64,000 nt of DNA from Robertmurraya dakarensis (GTDB taxonomy: Bacteria > Bacillota > Bacilli > Bacillales > Cytobacillaceae): assembly GCF_900156875.1 (NCBI RefSeq), contig NZ_LT707409.1, positions 3,493,435-3,557,434 on the forward strand. Direction: 5' to 3'. How positions within the stretch are numbered: position 1 is the stretch's first letter; each line of letters begins with the position of its first letter. The notes under the pieces were generated by a model, which was not told where the DNA came from, searched no databases, and saw nothing but the letters and a program-made list of their open reading frames with translations. Shown here piece by piece: positions 3,119-19,028 of this stretch. A program made the position numbers and the translations under genes.

Positions 3119-4336
3119 ATGTCCGATACTACTAATCTTACAGAATTAATTCAGCAGGCAACTCAACATTTAATTGATTTGAGGTATTCCGAAGGAACGA
3201 TATATCGGTATAGACTTGTCTGGAAGCATTTTCGGGTATATGCGGAAACTAGGAATCACAAAATTTTCTCATTGAAATTGGGAGAGGCCTTCTTATTAGA
3301 CTATTATGGTATTAAACCCAACATGAAACTTTCAGAGTCACAGGTTTTTAATGTCAGATGTATTAAGGTTTTGGAAGAATATCATCAGCATAATTCATTT
3401 CAGAAATGTCACCAATCACCAGGAAGGCAAGTTCCTAATCAATATATAAACATTTTTGAGGAATATATTCAGCTTCAAAAAGAACTACAATTGTCGAAAC
3501 GTACACTGCAGGGTAAAAAGATACAGATTATCGATTTTCTTAGTTATATTGATAAGGAAAATCTGATTGGCATAAATAATTTAATGCCTGAAGTTGTAAT
3601 GGTTTATCTAGAAACATTAAGTAAATACGCAAGTGCGACGAGGTCTGGTATTTTGTTCACATTAAGAGATTTTTTAGCTTTTCTTTTTTCAAAAGGCTAT
3701 ACCGAATCTCCACTAAATCAACTTTTTCCGGTTATTTTCACAAATAAATTTGAAAGAATTCCTTCCTATTATTCAATAGAAGAAATACAAAGGATCCTTA
3801 AGCAAGTGGATAGGAGCTCCGAAATTGGTCGTAGGGACTATGTAGTATTGTTATTAGCAATACAGTTAGGGATACGCGCTGGTGATATTAGAAAGTTAAA
3901 ATTTGACAACATAAAATGGCACTTAGATACTATAGAGTTCGTTCAGGAGAAAACCAACAATCCAATAAGGCTCCCATTAGTTGAAAACCTGAAATATGCT
4001 TTAATTGATTATATAAAAAATAGTCGGCCTATCACTAATGACCCACATATTTTCATACGTCATAGAGCGCCATTTATTGCGTTTACAAAAGGGAACGTAT
4101 TCTGGAGTATTATCAATAAATATATGGATACCGCAGGTATCACGATCAATAGGAGGAAACATGGCCTTCATTCTATGAGGCACAGTATGGCAAGTAACCT
4201 ACTTAAAAATAACACCCCATACCCTGTTATTACTGGTGTATTAGGACATGAAAACTCAAATACTACGAAATTATATCTCCGTATTGACATAGAGCAACTT
4301 CGAACGGTTGCATTGGAGGTACCTTATGAAAGATAA
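3119..4336 (+). CDS. Tyrosine recombinase RitA-like
   Basis: 405 residues. It has an N-terminal SAM-like core-binding region (about 10-200) and a C-terminal catalytic domain (about 215-395). The family residues are visible: Arg in LGIRAGDIRKLK, Lys in VQEKTNNPIRLP, the box HSMRHSMA, His in LGHENSNTT and the tyrosine nucleophile in KLYLRID. The start at 3119 has a good AAGGAGGG Shine-Dalgarno. It is the first gene of the trio and overlaps the next by 11 bases, so the three proteins are probably made in fixed proportion and may act together at the element ends. Confidence 0.9.
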   Translation: MSDTTNLTELIQQATQHLIDLRYSEGTIYRYRLVWKHFRVYAETRNHKIFSLKLGEAFLLDYYGIKPNMKLSESQVFNVRCIKVLEEYHQHNSFQKCHQSPGRQVPNQYINIFEEYIQLQKELQLSKRTLQGKKIQIIDFLSYIDKENLIGINNLMPEVVMVYLETLSKYASATRSGILFTLRDFLAFLFSKGYTESPLNQLFPVIFTNKFERIPSYYSIEEIQRILKQVDRSSEIGRRDYVVLLLAIQLGIRAGDIRKLKFDNIKWHLDTIEFVQEKTNNPIRLPLVENLKYALIDYIKNSRPITNDPHIFIRHRAPFIAFTKGNVFWSIINKYMDTAGITINRRKHGLHSMRHSMASNLLKNNTPYPVITGVLGHENSNTTKLYLRIDIEQLRTVALEVPYER

Positions 4337-5312
4337 AGAAAAGCAATTCATTTTTGATGGTCCTTTTAAAGATTATTGTTCGATGTATGTTGAATATAAA
4401 CGAAATCTTGGTTATAAATTTGGAGAATCCTCTCTTTATCAATTAAGGTATATGAATGATTTTTTTAAGAAATACGATATGGTCACTTTGAAATTGAATA
4501 AGGAAATGGTTGAGGACTATGTAAGCAAAAGAGGGAAAGAATCAGCTAAGACTCAGCATATGAGAATGAGCCTTATTAGACAATTTGCCATATATATGAA
4601 CAGTATGGGTTTTGATTTTTACGTTCATCCTAAAGAACTAATCCCTATTTCCAAAACTTTTTCTCCTTATATTTTTACTCGCGAAGAAATCGCAAGCATA
4701 ATAAAAGTTGTAGATAATTTGAAATATATTCCATCAAGTAAGTATTATCACGTGATATACCCAATGCTTTTTAGAATGTTGTATGGATGCGGGTTAAGAA
4801 TTAACGAAGCGTTGTCGTTAAAAAAAGTCGATGTTGATCTAGATGGCGGAATACTAACAGTTAAAAAAGCTAAGAACAATACTAGCAGACTAGTTCCTAT
4901 GTCGACATCATTAACCAATTACTGTAGACGATATGTTTCAAAGATGGGATTTGATATGCATGAAGATGGATATTTCTATCCCTCACGGGATAATGGGAAA
5001 TATAACAACACTCCTGTATATGTAAAATTTAAAGATTTTATGAAAGAGGCTGGAATATTTGCGGAAAACGAAGTTGGCCCCAGAGTTCACGATATTCGGC
5101 ATACTTTCGCAGTACATGCATTAGAAAAGATGGTTCAGGATGGACAAGATCTCTATTGTGCTTTACCAATTTTATGTACTTACTTAGGACATCGGGATAT
5201 TGAGAGTACAGAGAAATATCTAAGGCTTACAGAAGAAGCTTATGGTCAAATTATTGATTCTGTTACACCTCTTTACAATGGAGTTTTTCCGGAGGTGCAG
5301 ATCGATGAATAG
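4326..5312 (+). CDS. Tyrosine recombinase RitB-like
   Basis: About 328 residues from ATG 4326, chosen because GGAGGT lies five bases upstream inside the end of the preceding gene. Catalytic residues seen: Arg in CGLRINEALSL, Lys in VKKAKNNTSR, HDIRHTFA, a spacer with LYCALPILCTYLGHRD, and Tyr in TEKYLRLT. The longer helix between HxxR and LGH resembles phage-integrase-like RitB proteins. Overlaps ritA by 11 and ritC by 8 bases. Confidence 0.9.
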   Translation: MKDKEKQFIFDGPFKDYCSMYVEYKRNLGYKFGESSLYQLRYMNDFFKKYDMVTLKLNKEMVEDYVSKRGKESAKTQHMRMSLIRQFAIYMNSMGFDFYVHPKELIPISKTFSPYIFTREEIASIIKVVDNLKYIPSSKYYHVIYPMLFRMLYGCGLRINEALSLKKVDVDLDGGILTVKKAKNNTSRLVPMSTSLTNYCRRYVSKMGFDMHEDGYFYPSRDNGKYNNTPVYVKFKDFMKEAGIFAENEVGPRVHDIRHTFAVHALEKMVQDGQDLYCALPILCTYLGHRDIESTEKYLRLTEEAYGQIIDSVTPLYNGVFPEVQIDE

Positions 5313-6321
5313 TACCGATTTTGGAAGATACCTATCTAAATATTTTCTCAGTTATATACCACAAAGAACTGGTTATAGTGAAAACACAATTAAATCATAT
5401 AGGGATACTTTTACAATTTTTCTTAGATACTGTAAAGATGTTCTTCGAATTAAACCAGAAAAAATATGCTTTTCAAGAATGAGCAGGAATATGGTTGAAG
5501 ACTTTTTAACTTGGTTGGAAGATACAAAAAAATACTCTATTTCAACCAGAAATCAAAGATTAGCCGCGTTACATGCATTCTTTCGATATATACAAATTGA
5601 GGCTCCAGAATATATGGAACTGTGCAATTCAATATTATCAATAAGTTCGAAAAAAACACCTACGGTTGAAATGAACTATTTATCAATAGCAGCAATTAAA
5701 GAACTTTTAGCTACTCCTGATGCATCCAACAAAGAAGCGCGTAGGGATTTAGCTATTCTTTCCTTACTTTATGATTCAGGAGCAAGAGTTCAAGAACTAG
5801 TAGATGTACTAGTTGGTGATATAAGAATAAAAGGACCAGCAACAATACGATTAACTGGGAAAGGTAAAAAAACAAGGATTATTCCAATAATGCCTCAAAC
5901 AATAAATATCGTAAAAGCTTATATAAATGATTACGGTTTGTTTAGCGAATCAAAATTCACTTCACCTTTATTTTTTAATAAAAGGCAAGAAAAACTAACA
6001 AGAGCTGGTATTTCATATATTGTAAACAAATATATAACGGCAGCCAGAAAAAAACATCCAGAATTATTTCCAAATAGAGTTTCACCACATATTTTTAGAC
6101 ATAGTAAAGCTATGCATTTATTAGAGAGTGGTGTCAACCTGATTTATATAAGGGATTTTTTAGGGCATTCCTCTGTTACTACAACTGAAATTTATGCAAA
6201 ATCGAATCCAGAGGTGAAAAGGAAAGCGATTGAACAAGCAAGCCATAATGTGATTCCTGATGAAAAACTTACTAAAAAAGAAAAAGATGATTTATTGAAC
6301 TGGTTAAAAGAACTTATTTAG
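5305..6321 (+). CDS. Tyrosine recombinase RitC-like (XerC/D-like)
   Basis: About 338 residues from ATG 5305 with GGAGGTG upstream. It is the most Xer-like of the three: Arg in DSGARVQELVD, Lys in TGKGKKTRIIP, HIFRHSKAMHLLE, LGHSSVTTTEIYAKSNPE with the tyrosine nucleophile. A short basic and acidic tail follows (KLTKKEKDDLLNWLKELI). The start overlaps the ritB stop by 8 bases (ATGAATAG). Right-end repeats begin about five bases after the stop. Confidence 0.9.
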   Translation: MNSTDFGRYLSKYFLSYIPQRTGYSENTIKSYRDTFTIFLRYCKDVLRIKPEKICFSRMSRNMVEDFLTWLEDTKKYSISTRNQRLAALHAFFRYIQIEAPEYMELCNSILSISSKKTPTVEMNYLSIAAIKELLATPDASNKEARRDLAILSLLYDSGARVQELVDVLVGDIRIKGPATIRLTGKGKKTRIIPIMPQTINIVKAYINDYGLFSESKFTSPLFFNKRQEKLTRAGISYIVNKYITAARKKHPELFPNRVSPHIFRHSKAMHLLESGVNLIYIRDFLGHSSVTTTEIYAKSNPEVKRKAIEQASHNVIPDEKLTKKEKDDLLNWLKELI

Positions 6322-6325
6322 AATT

Positions 6326-6441
6326 TATTATGCAAAGTTGGATGTTAAAAATCATAAACAAGACAAGGCCTTTAGCATTCAACTTTACATAATAAGTAAC
6401 TTTCCATAAGATGAATTATGTGAAGCTTTGCATAATTCATC
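6326..6441 (+). repeat. RIT element right end with a duplicated core site
   Basis: Contains TATTATGCAAAGTT (6326-6339), AACTTTACATAATA (6381-6394), CTTTCCATAAGATGAA (6400-6415), a 20-base near-palindrome TTATGTGAAGCTTTGCATAA (6416-6435) and TTCATC (6436-6441). The string CATAA-GATGAA-TTATG at 6405-6420 is the reverse complement of the CATAA-TTCATC-TTATG joint that a circularised element would have, so the right end holds an extra core site. The left end lacks this extra 20 bases. Confidence 0.8.
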
Positions 6442-6945
6442 AATGATAAGCAGCTTATATTTTGCATAATGTTTGAGTCTATTCTCCAATCGATTTTCAA
6501 GTTTTGCTCTTTTTAAATTGAGAATCAAGTCATTACACTTAATAAAATACGTGCTCGTCCTTTTCTTTGCTGCTGCGATTCCAATAGCGGTGGCTAAATG
6601 AGTTTTGCCCACACCACTTGTTCCTAAAAATACAATATTTTCTTTTTGCTCAATAAACCGTAAGGTGGTGAAATCTAAAATCTGTTGTTTATTAATCGTT
6701 GGTTGAAAATCAAAATCAAAGTCTTTTACTTCCTTCAAATGAGGGAATGCACCGACTTTCACCATTGATTTCACCATGTTGACTTCCTTCATATCAATTT
6801 CGTAATCCGTAAGTTTGATTAACGTTTCCGTAAATGACAATTGGTTATTGGTCATAAAATCAATCGTTTCATCAAGATGCACTAACATCTGCTTTAACTT
6901 TAAATACTCTAAATTATTTACAAGTTTGTTATAACTACTATTCAT
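6442..6945 (-). pseudogene. istB: IstB ATPase (transposition helper), N-terminal fragment
   Basis: About 168 codons of IstB from ATG 6945, which overlaps the istA stop by 8 bases. Walker A is GTSGVGKTHLATAIG, followed by the expected helix and KLLIIDE, where the frame is cut by the RIT element between the Glu and Ile codons of Walker B. Translation would continue for some 19 foreign residues into the RIT end and stop at 6385. The C-terminal part is at 2725-2988. Confidence 0.92.
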
Positions 6946-8227
6946 TTTTATACACCTCATTAATTGCCTCTAAATTTTTCTTTGCCAACTCTTCTATATT
7001 TGTGGAAGATGGTAATCCTCTTGCCAATGTATCGACATAATGCTCTGGCTTGTAATTGAGTTTTGATTGGCGAATAGGATGTTGGACAATTAAATCCGTG
7101 TTATAATAAACAAAGATATGGTTGTCATATACTTGTAAACGAAGCGTTTTCCCGATGTATCCAGGTGGGACTGAATACTGGTTGGATTTGAAGGGAACCA
7201 TATTAGATGGATTCACTTTCACATGTATATGATCAATTTTATAGGAATCTCTTATTCGTTCATGTGGTAATGGGGATAAGAGATTTTTTTCTTTTTTTAG
7301 TGCCAGTATCGGGATTTTTCCTGTTCCTTGGTGGTAACTATTGTTGATACGATCACATAGTTTTTGTATAAACTGATGAAGTTCCTCATAATCAAATTTT
7401 CCTTGATAGGCGTGAATCTCATCTAGTAATTTCATCGGGGCCTCTACTTTGGCTTTTGTCCTCGGTCTTCCTGCTATACAAGGCCTCACCTCAAAACCCA
7501 TGTCTTTAGAAAATTGAAAAAACCGTTCATTTACTTTTCCTTTTTGATGTTCTGTTCGAGGCTCGTCCATAACCGTTTTCATGTTGTCTGTTAGAATCGT
7601 TTTAGGAACTCCTCCAAATGCTTCAAAGCTCTCCGTAAGGAAAGATAATAATATACTTTGAGACTTAGAGATTGATAAGTTGAATGTTCGAAACCTTGAA
7701 TGAGCAAGTAAAAGTACGCATACATTCACATAAAGGATTTCCCCATCTTTGGTGATGTATCGAATATTTTCCTTCCAATCTAATTGTGCTTGTTCAGCTG
7801 GTGGTGTCTCAAAACGAATTACTTCACTGACTGAACTCTTACGTCTCTCTGATTCGAAGTAACTTTGGAATTCTGGTTTACTTGATATGTAATTCCTGAA
7901 AGTTGATTGTCCACAATTTAATCCATGATTATCTTTCAAGTATTGCCATAGTACTCTTTTGTAATAAAATTTTTGATTAGATTCTTCTGATAGAAGCAGC
8001 GCTATAACTTCATAGTAATCATCTACTTTTGATGTCCTCTTCCGATTACTTTTCGGCTCATAACCCTGTAGATATTTTTCAACCGTCCTCCGATCTACTC
8101 CCATATCCCGAGCTAATTTACTCTTATTGATCTTCATTTTTAAACTCTCCATTAACAATTTAAGTTTAGGTAAATCTACAAGACTGTTAATTTCAATATC
8201 TGTATTTACATTGATTTGCATGTGCAT
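6938..8227 (-). CDS. istA: IS21-family transposase IstA
   Basis: About 429 residues and apparently intact. The N-terminal helix-turn-helix (SKLARDMGVDRRTVEKYLQG) binds element ends. The integrase core has DDE candidates Asp in AQLDWKE, Asp in TILTDNMKT and Glu in KAKVEAPMK. The C-terminal beta domain contains VPFKSNQYSVPPGYIG. The start at 8227 has GGAGGTGGAATATT upstream and is preferred over an upstream in-frame codon. It is expressed with istB and the third ORF. Without a functional IstB partner this copy is likely stalled. Confidence 0.9.
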   Translation of the reverse strand: MHMQINVNTDIEINSLVDLPKLKLLMESLKMKINKSKLARDMGVDRRTVEKYLQGYEPKSNRKRTSKVDDYYEVIALLLSEESNQKFYYKRVLWQYLKDNHGLNCGQSTFRNYISSKPEFQSYFESERRKSSVSEVIRFETPPAEQAQLDWKENIRYITKDGEILYVNVCVLLLAHSRFRTFNLSISKSQSILLSFLTESFEAFGGVPKTILTDNMKTVMDEPRTEHQKGKVNERFFQFSKDMGFEVRPCIAGRPRTKAKVEAPMKLLDEIHAYQGKFDYEELHQFIQKLCDRINNSYHQGTGKIPILALKKEKNLLSPLPHERIRDSYKIDHIHVKVNPSNMVPFKSNQYSVPPGYIGKTLRLQVYDNHIFVYYNTDLIVQHPIRQSKLNYKPEHYVDTLARGLPSSTNIEELAKKNLEAINEVYKNE

Positions 8228-8263
8228 AATATTCCACCTCCAGAATATTATGCATCTTCTCAA

Positions 8264-8313
8264 CAAAACTGTACATTCTTATACAAGCATTTCTGTACAC
8301 TATTAAATTAGCA
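8264..8313 (-). repeat. IS21-family right terminal inverted repeat
   Basis: The reverse complement begins TGCTAATTTAATAG, then TGTACAG, TGCTTGT, and AGAATGTACAG, matching the left end at 2294-2344. Confidence 0.8.
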
Positions 8314-16944: not shown

Positions 16945-16982
16945 AAAAAAGATGCGTACTATTAATAAGTACGCATCTTTTT
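16945..16982. terminator. Bidirectional terminator between gdhA and parR-like gene
   Basis: AAAAAAGATGCGTACT pairs with AGTACGCATCTTTTTT around six bases. A-tract and T-tract on both sides serve both convergent genes. Confidence 0.9.
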
Positions 16983-17569
16983 TATTTATTCATTTGGCTT
17001 AAAAATCCACCCAGCAAGTCCTCTACATCGTCTTCTTCTATATTATCCTCATTTTCAGACAGTGAAGCAGCCTGCTCATCTTTAATCTGATTCCAATCTA
17101 ATTCCATTAGATCATCTTCGTCCAAGACAGAGTCTGTTTCAAGGTCGAACTCGCGGCTTTCATCAGTATCTTCCAACATCGGATTTTCCTGCTCTTGTAG
17201 AAATAAGGCTTCATCAATATCTAATGAATGACTGTTAAAAGAGGCAAGAAACGAAGAAGCCCGGACAGGATCTGCAAGCATTTGGTAAATAATTGATCCA
17301 AGCAGCGCTTCAGAATGGGCATGCTTCAGCCAATTACGCTGTTCCTTGCTTAATGCTCTTGGAAGAGGAATCGTCACCGTTTCTTTCTCTTTAATATGAT
17401 GACGATTCACTCCATCCAGCACAAACTCGGCAATTTTACTGGAAAAATTCCGTTTTTCCTTATCCTTTAATTCCTGTAATTGCTGAATGAGATGATCTGG
17501 AGTATCAGAAGGGAGCCTAAACGTAATAGCTTGTCCCCTCTCAATACCAGCCCTTCCGTTTTTTTTCAT
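16982..17569 (-). CDS. ParR/AlfB-like DNA-binding adaptor of actin-type partition system
   Basis: 195 residues. The N-terminus (about 10-60) has a ribbon-helix-helix look: QAITFRLPSDTPDHLIQQLQ then a helix with KRNFSSKIAEFVLDGV. The last 80 residues are highly acidic (EDNIEEDDVEDLLGG). It lies 12 bases downstream of the parM-like gene, the position of the centromere-binding adaptor in parMR-type operons. It would bind the iteron array at 18872-19028 and cap ParM filaments (inference from family). No named-family match is recognised beyond this layout. Confidence 0.7.
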   Translation of the reverse strand: MKKNGRAGIERGQAITFRLPSDTPDHLIQQLQELKDKEKRNFSSKIAEFVLDGVNRHHIKEKETVTIPLPRALSKEQRNWLKHAHSEALLGSIIYQMLADPVRASSFLASFNSHSLDIDEALFLQEQENPMLEDTDESREFDLETDSVLDEDDLMELDWNQIKDEQAASLSENEDNIEEDDVEDLLGGFLSQMNK

Positions 17570-17581
17570 GACATCACCTTA

Positions 17582-18772
17582 TTATTTTGTGACAGCTTGT
17601 TTCTCCGGGCCCTTTCCTTTGCCCTTTTCCTCTTTTTCCTTCTTTCTTACAAAATCGGAAATAAGCTTATAATAAGCATTAGCCATCATCCAGATACTTT
17701 CTTTCTCATCCTCGAAAAATTCAATATTATAGCCATCTAAACTGTTATTAAGCGCCTTAAGATAATCTTTTAAAACAATAGAACCGCCGCCTACAAAATA
17801 GCAAATCTCTGTTTGTGAGTTCTTTTTCCAAACATTGCGGAGATGACGGTATTGCTTTTTGGCAAGCTCCAATAAAATGCGGTCCGTAATATCATGAACA
17901 CTAGTCCGGCTTCCTTTTACCATAATGTGATTGCGGTCATTTTTCCTAGTAATAATTTCAACCACATCACGACGGCTGTCTAGCTCCACTCCGTGTTTCG
18001 AACGAATTTCTTCACGAATTGCTTCCAATGCTTCAGAAACACCGATATTGAAGCCTTGCGCTTTATCATCATCGACATTGCGGTTCTTAATCACTGCTAC
18101 ATCAGTTGATAAACCTCCAATGTCTTGAATCAGAATTCTTCTATCAATTAAATCTCTATTAATAATGTTGAGATCATTGTCCATAACAAGGTTAATGTAA
18201 GCTGCAAATCCTTCAGGATATACTTTCACTTCATCAAATTTAATATTTACTTTTATACCTTGATACTTTGGAGTCACTAAAAATTCCACTTGATGGACAG
18301 AGCTTAATAATTGCGCTCGGTACCCTACATCTTTACCTTCCTTTACTTCACGGAGAGGTAATCCTGTACCAAGAGTATAATTAGCATCTATTACATTATT
18401 AACCTTTTTAAAAAGATTAGAATTTTCATCTCTTACTGCATCTAATGCCAATGAAGCAAAAAGCATAACCAATGTCTGATCCTCTTCAGACTTACTACTT
18501 CCAGGATCTAATTCTGCGGCATTGTCACTTTTTGTCGCAAGACTGCCCACACGATAAACAACATTATTTTCTGTTAAAGCAGGGGAGTGGACTCTAATAT
18601 GAATACCTTCTAATGGATCCTTCTCATTTAACTCTTCTATTCCAATAACTGGACGATCCTCCGTATCTCTTGCCATTACGTTCGGTATATTTAGTTCAAA
18701 GTCCATTTTACCGAATAAAGCCTTAATTGAATCATTTCCAACATCAATTGCTGCTACCCTAGAATTACTCAT
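17582..18772 (-). CDS. ParM/StbA-family actin-like ATPase
   Basis: 396 residues. Actin-fold ATP motifs are visible: phosphate-1 AAIDVGNDSIKALFG, phosphate-2 ILIQDIGGLSTDVAVI and adenosine motif CYFVGGGSIVLKDYL. Length and motifs fit plasmid segregation actins of the ParM/Alp type, not MreB. A Lys/Glu-rich tail ends the protein (RKKEKEEKGKGKGPEK). ATG 18772 has AAGGGATGATTTG upstream. The gene sits near oriC between housekeeping genes, with no plasmid replication gene in view, so it is a chromosomal copy. With its downstream adaptor and upstream iterons it makes a complete type II partition cassette in outline. Confidence 0.85.
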   Translation of the reverse strand: MSNSRVAAIDVGNDSIKALFGKMDFELNIPNVMARDTEDRPVIGIEELNEKDPLEGIHIRVHSPALTENNVVYRVGSLATKSDNAAELDPGSSKSEEDQTLVMLFASLALDAVRDENSNLFKKVNNVIDANYTLGTGLPLREVKEGKDVGYRAQLLSSVHQVEFLVTPKYQGIKVNIKFDEVKVYPEGFAAYINLVMDNDLNIINRDLIDRRILIQDIGGLSTDVAVIKNRNVDDDKAQGFNIGVSEALEAIREEIRSKHGVELDSRRDVVEIITRKNDRNHIMVKGSRTSVHDITDRILLELAKKQYRHLRNVWKKNSQTEICYFVGGGSIVLKDYLKALNNSLDGYNIEFFEDEKESIWMMANAYYKLISDFVRKKEKEEKGKGKGPEKQAVTK

Positions 18773-18871
18773 CAAATCATCCCTTCATATGATTATAGGT
18801 ATAAGAAAAATTTAACATCATATAATAATAGATTATTTGATTTCCAATAGCTAGTCAATGATTCATTAGTT

Positions 18872-19028
18872 GTATTCAAAAAGGATTACAAGTACACAAA
18901 TATGTATACACGTACACAAATCCGCATACATGTTGATATATCAGCATGTATACACGTTTGTAAACAAGTATACGAATATGAATACATTAAGTATACATAT
19001 TCGTATACAAGAATACACTTTTGTATAC
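18872..19028. repeat. Iteron array upstream of parM, putative centromere (parC-like)
   Basis: Fourteen GTATAC-like hexamers start at 18872, 18884, 18892, 18904, 18912, 18924, 18948, 18960, 18968, 18980, 18991, 19003, 19011 and 19023. Six are exact GTATAC. Spacing alternates 12 and 8 bases (a 20-bp period), apart from a central dyad GATATATC at 18935-18942 and two steps near 11 bases. An inverted repeat GTATACGAATATG / CATATTCGTATAC occupies 18968-18980 and 18996-19008. The array covers the parM promoter region, as centromeres of parMR systems do. Confidence 0.8.

Follow-up and report, generated by a model that had tools for sequence, protein, structure and literature searches.

A candidate chromosomal actin-type partition cassette kept near oriC in Bacillales

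Introduction

In plasmid ParMRC systems, dimers of the adaptor ParR line an array of sites on the DNA, and their free tails cap or recruit filaments of the actin-like ATPase ParM. ParABS systems are built from other parts, a Walker-type ATPase and parS sites instead of an actin and a hexamer array. ParM is also encoded on some chromosomes. Ali et al. (2025, J Biol Chem, PMC12270681) describe chromosomal ParMs (cParMR) in Desulfitobacterium, Clostridium, Moorella and Bacillus tropicus. The accessible parts of their paper name two B. tropicus cassettes, with Bt-cParM conserved on the chromosomes of several Bacillus species, report that no conserved cparC was identified among Clostridium strains, and state that ParCMR had yet to be implicated in chromosome segregation.

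Here we analyse a 64,000-nucleotide stretch of Robertmurraya dakarensis DNA (hereafter the window), in which a parM-like gene, a parR-like gene and an array of short repeats lie next to each other. We argue, at a probability of roughly 0.6, that together these elements are a functional chromosomal partition cassette of the actin type (type II, ParMRC-like), which belongs to an old Bacillales lineage, has been kept near oriC and would work beside ParABS.

Results

Gene pair and upstream array

The two genes both run leftward, with parM first and parR 12 nt behind it (Table 1). The likely start of parM is the ATG at 18772; the list of open reading frames gives the gene as 17582-18775, starting from a TTG at 18775. 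In Pfam searches, the window ParM matched Alp7A_like_C (E = 1.6e-38, 132.4 bits, cut-off 22) and ALP_N (E = 1.8e-10, 41.7 bits, cut-off 26.3), and its ParM_N score of 25.3 was slightly below the cut-off of 27.4. These matches place it among the actin-fold ATPases of the ParM/Alp family, as in type II (ParMRC) systems. It was 82-89% identical to the 36 other rows of the family alignment, in which blocks including DVGND and DIGGLSTD are invariant. Searching the PDB by sequence with ParM gave weak matches. The predicted structure was poor (mean pLDDT 51); with this low-confidence model, Foldseek ranked Alp7A first (5ec0, E = 3.7e-7), followed by ParM of pSK41 and Alp12, at TM-scores of 0.32-0.44. 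The genome from which the window was taken has a single copy of parM.

Table 1. Positions of the cassette elements and of its putative expression signals in the window.
Feature	Position	Strand	Basis
parM-like actin ATPase gene	17582..18772	-	Pfam domains and family alignment
parR-like adaptor gene, 195 aa	16982..17569	-	N-terminal part putatively ribbon-helix-helix (RHH)-like; acidic linker; tail conserved as LLGxFLxxMNK at the C terminus
parC-like array, 14 GTATAC-like hexamers, 12/8 rhythm, 24-bp central gap	18872..19028		Hexamer count, shuffles, array model
Semi-conserved 18-bp spacer at array centre	18930..18947		Palindromic in the window; dyad not kept in the family
Putative sigma-A promoter of parM	18830..18858	-	TTGACT 18853-18858, 17-bp spacer, TAATCT 18830-18835; by eye
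Putative bidirectional terminator of parR and the convergent glutamate dehydrogenase gene	16945..16984		Inverted repeat AGATGCGTACT/AGTACGCATCT with runs of A and T on either side; by eye

The window ParR matched none of the Pfam or NCBIfam models. By eye it shows a strand-helix-helix pattern; the predicted structure, again poor (mean pLDDT 65), has helices at 25-37 and 42-61 and no strand. Chromosomal ParRs could be aligned with plasmid ParRs, and a profile that combined 8 plasmid with 7 chromosomal sequences weakly matched the helices of the Arc repressor (E = 0.028). Foldseek found no convincing match for the ParR model, a PDB sequence search with ParR alone found none, and one further ParR search returned one match at chance level. 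The models of both proteins were probably poor because the underlying alignments were made up of close relatives only. At the C-terminal end of ParR, the residues F, L, M and N are invariant in 51 rows and the preceding linker is variable. A conserved tail behind a variable linker would fit a tail that binds ParM.

The array is situated between parM and a UDP-glucose dehydrogenase gene. A preliminary description of this DNA had counted 14 GTATAC-like hexamers in a 12-8 rhythm around a central dyad. The count was confirmed, as 13 hexamers have at most one mismatch to GTATAC and the remaining one, GATTAC at 18884, has two. The rhythm was found with one irregularity. From low to high coordinates the spacings are 12, 8, 12, 8, 12, 24, 12, 8, 12, 11, 12, 8 and 12 bp, which yields 16 hexamer pairs at 8, 12 or 20 bp (maximum 4 and mean 0.17 in 2000 dinucleotide shuffles) but also includes one step of 11 bp. 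A step of 9-11 bp occurs at a similar array position in many relatives. Outside the array, no 165-bp stretch of the window had a pair score above 1.

The dyad was borne out for the window only, where the centre of the array is a near-palindrome. Among 73 distinct centres of 81, after duplicates and rows without G at the next site had been dropped, 292 of 657 cells were dyad-paired, which is less than the shuffle mean of 336, and the dyad was rejected as a conserved feature of the centromere. Instead, the 24-bp central gap with its semi-conserved 18-bp spacer recurred across loci.

We compared the window with the best 80 of 448 confirmed relatives, which were 82-90% identical. In all 80 loci, parR lies directly downstream of parM with a gap of 5-22 nt, and an array is present; a cluster of sites falls within 330 nt before parM in 79 of them, and in the 80th (L019) the array lies further upstream, with other sequence in between. 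The commonest pair distances over the 80 loci were 12 bp (269 pairs), 20 bp (260) and 8 bp (193), compared with a highest count of 4 in shuffled copies. The site consensus is tGTnnACa, with GTATAC, GTTTAC, GTAAAC, GTGTAC and GTACAC as the commonest forms. Hence, the hexamers are conserved where the two genes are, and the complete parMR-parC layout proposed earlier is upheld as a prediction, with parM, a parR-like gene and the upstream array all present in a conserved order. An iterated, centromere-like array that exceeds shuffles, is conserved, adjoins the operon and consists of predicted ParR sites is likewise what characterises type II (ParMRC) systems. The last site of the window array is 13 nt upstream of the putative parM promoter. 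Because the array is placed just upstream of this promoter, ParR probably represses its own operon.

Two relatives have arrays of a different extent. In L019, two similar array copies are found at about 5200-5600, a dense one at about 5180-5380 and the other at 5466-5594, and the array is separated from parM by some 0.4 kb of other DNA, which may be an inserted repeat element. In genome G071 (L134:3005-3748), the single array place upstream of parM is about 0.7 kb long and is broken into at least three blocks.

An array model based on sequence only (R1), built from 81 arrays with the window as one row, was run on 60 genomes, with stricter filters under which weaker arrays may have gone unnoticed. 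It matched all 25 genomes with an orthologue, of which at least eight (the window's own genome, six via loci, and G053, which is L053) had supplied rows to the model and match by construction, and none of the 35 genomes without a parM match. In the window's own genome, R1 matched at a single place (88.9 bits, E = 7.0e-25). Several dispersed arrays per genome, as for parS, were not found with R1, which pointed to one place in 24 of the 25 carriers. Only in G190 (the L056 genome, a Sporosarcina globispora record) did it match at two places; the additional array is weaker and lies about 171 kb beyond dnaA (L133:6148-6244). A tyrosine recombinase fragment and encapsulin-like genes are nearby, by eye, and no parM-like protein is among the listed ORFs of that stretch.

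The absence of replication and conjugation genes from the surroundings, also noted earlier, was borne out in the ORFs scanned, which were 34 of the 67 listed. Recombinase and IS21-type genes are located 9-14 kb from the cassette. Three overlapping tyrosine recombinase genes, all with Phage_integrase, occupy 3119-6321 of the window (+), a row that we take to resemble a recombinase-in-trio element. An IS21-type insertion sequence with an IstB-like ATPase and an rve/Mu-C transposase follows at 6385-8266 (-).

Distribution and descent

In the family sample, 159 of the 186 genomes had a parM match, or 152 when seven with best E-values of 1e-15 to 1e-82 are left out. In the order sample, 223 of 397 genomes had a match; 203 of these were at E = 2e-202 or better, with identities of 79-90% among the matches listed, and 20 were between 4e-4 and 2e-19. 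A parR match was found in the same 203 genomes that have the parM orthologue, and none had one gene alone. With the same reading of E-values, the class sample contained an orthologue in 24 of 398 genomes, eight of them outside the order. The 194 of 397 order genomes without an orthologue, together with the absence of the Pfam family from all 14 control genomes (B. subtilis included), indicate that the cassette is dispensable in the wider group. Presence and absence were uninformative about a link with sporulation, as Spo0A_C occurs in 391 of the 397 order genomes, with or without parM; five of the six genomes lacking Spo0A_C had no parM match and one (G416) had an orthologue. Alkalihalophilus pseudofirmus OF4 (L023) is a cultured carrier with a complete genome.

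Both genes are under purifying selection. The median pN/pS relative to the window was about 0.12 for parM and about 0.33 for parR, at synonymous sites that are nearly saturated. In the ParM tree, all 81 chromosomal rows formed one clade (100/100), and a long branch lay between them and the 8 plasmid rows, whose own branches are also long. The Psychrobacillus rows grouped together. The labels Metabacillus, Mesobacillus, Peribacillus and Jeotgalibacillus were split, so that some transfer within the group is possible and descent may not have been strictly vertical. The tree topology is consistent with a single origin, and we infer a single domestication of the cassette.

These data bear on the suggestion in the preliminary description that the cassette may be a relic of an integrated plasmid. 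A relic, or a recent plasmid integration without present function, would account for the same gene pair on plasmids and for the three recombinase genes and the IS21-type transposase in the vicinity. It is contradicted by the presence of the cassette in 203 of 397 order genomes (about half of the sample), by a tree in which the 8 plasmid rows stand outside its clade, by the purifying selection on both genes, and by an array and gene order that are intact in all of the best 80 of 448 loci. On these grounds we rejected an integrated plasmid relic, and we give a functionless remnant of any such kind hardly any credence. Judged from its sequences, the cassette is a widespread chromosomal lineage.

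Relatives on plasmids and mobile elements

Plasmid relatives of ParM were found in 30 records at 25-43% identity (best 42.7%), and phage records gave no match. In all eight plasmid relatives examined, parM is followed by a gene for a protein of 133-151 aa. By eye, six of the eight have GTATAC- or GCATAC-like sites before parM and two have a TTGCAAA repeat, with about 4-6 sites per array; R1 matched three of the eight, weakly. Because these relatives share the gene order, and such cassettes segregate DNA on plasmids, we counted them in favour of a role in partition.

Two IMG/VR contigs from one sample, 3300037312_001875 and _001617 (L161:2901-4137 and L162:2901-4137), carry a chromosomal-type parM that is 76% identical. 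Both have five GTATAC/GCATAC sites directly upstream of parM (by eye) and no recognised parR beside it. A profile scan for ParR in the viral contigs, with strict peptide patterns, found none. Within about 10 kb, one of the contigs has tail spike matches, TcpC, an AAA_10 ATPase and a Replic_Relax protein, which suggests a mobile element, perhaps conjugative or a phage-plasmid. It is possible that these contigs borrow the ParR of their host.

Alternatively, the chromosomal set may manage visiting plasmids, by favouring the stability of plasmids that have related sites or by disturbing plasmids of its own kind (incompatibility), with the array as a decoy or titration site. The similar sites in six of the eight plasmids and the weak R1 matches in three agree with this idea, as do the two mobile contigs and the second array of G190, which lies 171 kb beyond dnaA near what by eye is a recombinase fragment. 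However, the ParRs of seven chromosomes are 29-35% identical to that of pBM69 and have different ends, and a role in plasmid maintenance leaves the conserved distance to oriC unexplained. We therefore regard plasmid management as quite improbable.

Position relative to the origin

The preliminary description had placed the cassette near oriC, and in the window's own genome dnaA is indeed 84 kb from parM on the same contig. A search for dnaA covered 41 genomes, of which 37 were retained after removal of G016 and G074 (no parM), G110 (parM position unlisted) and G189 (identical to G053); they had been chosen as single-contig or well assembled, are mostly from one family, and form a non-random sample. 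In all 37 genomes, parM and dnaA are on opposite strands. In 35, parM lies 40-161 kb to the left of dnaA, and the median of the 36 left-side cases is 77 kb. The outliers are G007, at 301 kb to the left, and G024, at 765 kb to the right. In G024 (L135), parM is accompanied by its array at the distant position, which may reflect a relocated cassette or a matter of assembly. Since the cassette shares a contig with dnaA in its own genome and in 36 others, which is not low-copy plasmid carriage, we do not call it a plasmid partition system.

The flanking genes within 6 kb differ between genera, and parM and parR stay adjacent. As the sole control for placement we used a gene for an rRNA methyltransferase that lies 6 kb from parR here; it was sought in 25 genomes and found in 19. 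In these same 19 genomes, the control gene was within 200 kb to the left of dnaA in seven, versus 18 for parM (Fisher's p = 4e-4, uncorrected for relatedness and with some lengths rounded). The kept placement near oriC despite turnover of the flanks favours a further option of the preliminary description, that the cassette may be a working part of chromosome handling. Two ParB-type proteins scored above the cut-off in each of the 25 carriers tested, about 8-12 kb from dnaA where this was compared. These results imply that the cassette does not replace ParABS.

A repurposed cytoskeleton offers another explanation for the same locus. ParM and ParR would then shape the cell or carry other cargo, the array would be an operator, and the place near oriC would reflect gene dosage or inheritance. 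There is a precedent in the cyanobacterial FcmB, a plasmid-type actin encoded on the chromosome, which controls the shape of the cell according to the accessible parts of PMC12645912. Furthermore, the array abuts the parM promoter, and the window ParM weakly matches the FcmB model. Yet its score of 32.2 bits is far below the NCBIfam equivalog cut-off of 300, which places it outside FcmB. An operator could do without 14 phased sites and a central gap that recurs; the plasmid relatives examined have about 4-6 by eye, and the cassette remains near oriC while its neighbours differ. A cytoskeletal role is therefore conceivable but unlikely.

Discussion

If the locus is a working partition cassette, as we propose, it may operate as follows. 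ParR dimers would coat the 14-site array, about 75 kb to the left of dnaA (84 kb in the window), which would give a nucleoprotein platform of curved shape. Through its conserved C-terminal tail, ParR would recruit or cap filaments of the ParM-like ATPase, and the ParM filament could push apart or position two origin-proximal regions that have just been copied. Given a single array near oriC on each chromosome, the two sister arrays would be linked or driven apart shortly after replication begins. The cassette would act in addition to ParABS (Spo0J/Soj) and Noc.

A wider picture can be drawn tentatively, and we give it somewhat less than an even chance. A large part of the Bacillales may use two engines to segregate or anchor the replication origins, ParABS and an ancient actin-driven ParMRC with a 14-site centromere about 75 kb to the left of oriC, the second of which may be exploited by mobile elements that carry a parM of the host type and a mini-centromere without parR.

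About half of the sampled relatives have the intact kit, usually near oriC, and an actin-like filament may thus help to move chromosomes as well as plasmids. A conserved, candidate centromere near the origin, with its motor and adaptor, makes the movement of bacterial chromosomes by actin approachable by experiment. The cassette would also provide a natural example of plasmid machinery that has become part of a chromosome.

Comparison with known systems

The kind of system is already known. With ParM and ParR on the chromosome and conserved within a lineage, the window cassette counts as a cParMR. An order-wide form of it, near the origin and with a conserved centromere-like array, is not described among the matches listed in the open PMC literature, where nothing closer to a chromosomal ParMRC near oriC was found. 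According to the accessible parts of PMC12270681, the published cParMR pairs likewise consist of a chromosomal ParM and a ParR, there of the RHH type, are conserved within genera and occur in genomes that also have ParA/ParB; the function of cParMR is given there as unknown. In contrast, the same parts of the paper describe no link with oriC and no family-wide centromere, and conservation within genera compares with about half of the order sample here.

FcmB/FcmC of filamentous cyanobacteria resemble the window cassette as a plasmid-type actin that has settled in the chromosome with a downstream partner, but the accessible parts of PMC12645912 assign them a role in cell shape and describe no DNA array.

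Plasmid Alp7A-like cassettes, such as those of pBM69 of B. methanolicus, pSJ52 and pPo45, share the parM-parR order and the upstream sites. They differ in having about 4-6 sites near the promoter instead of 14, and a ParR of 133-151 aa whose end is short and acidic (FLNFDDDD, for example), whereas the chromosomal ParRs have 186-213 aa and ends like DDLLGDFLAxMNK. ParABS and Noc, finally, resemble the proposed role of the cassette in that they too are origin-proximal partition functions.
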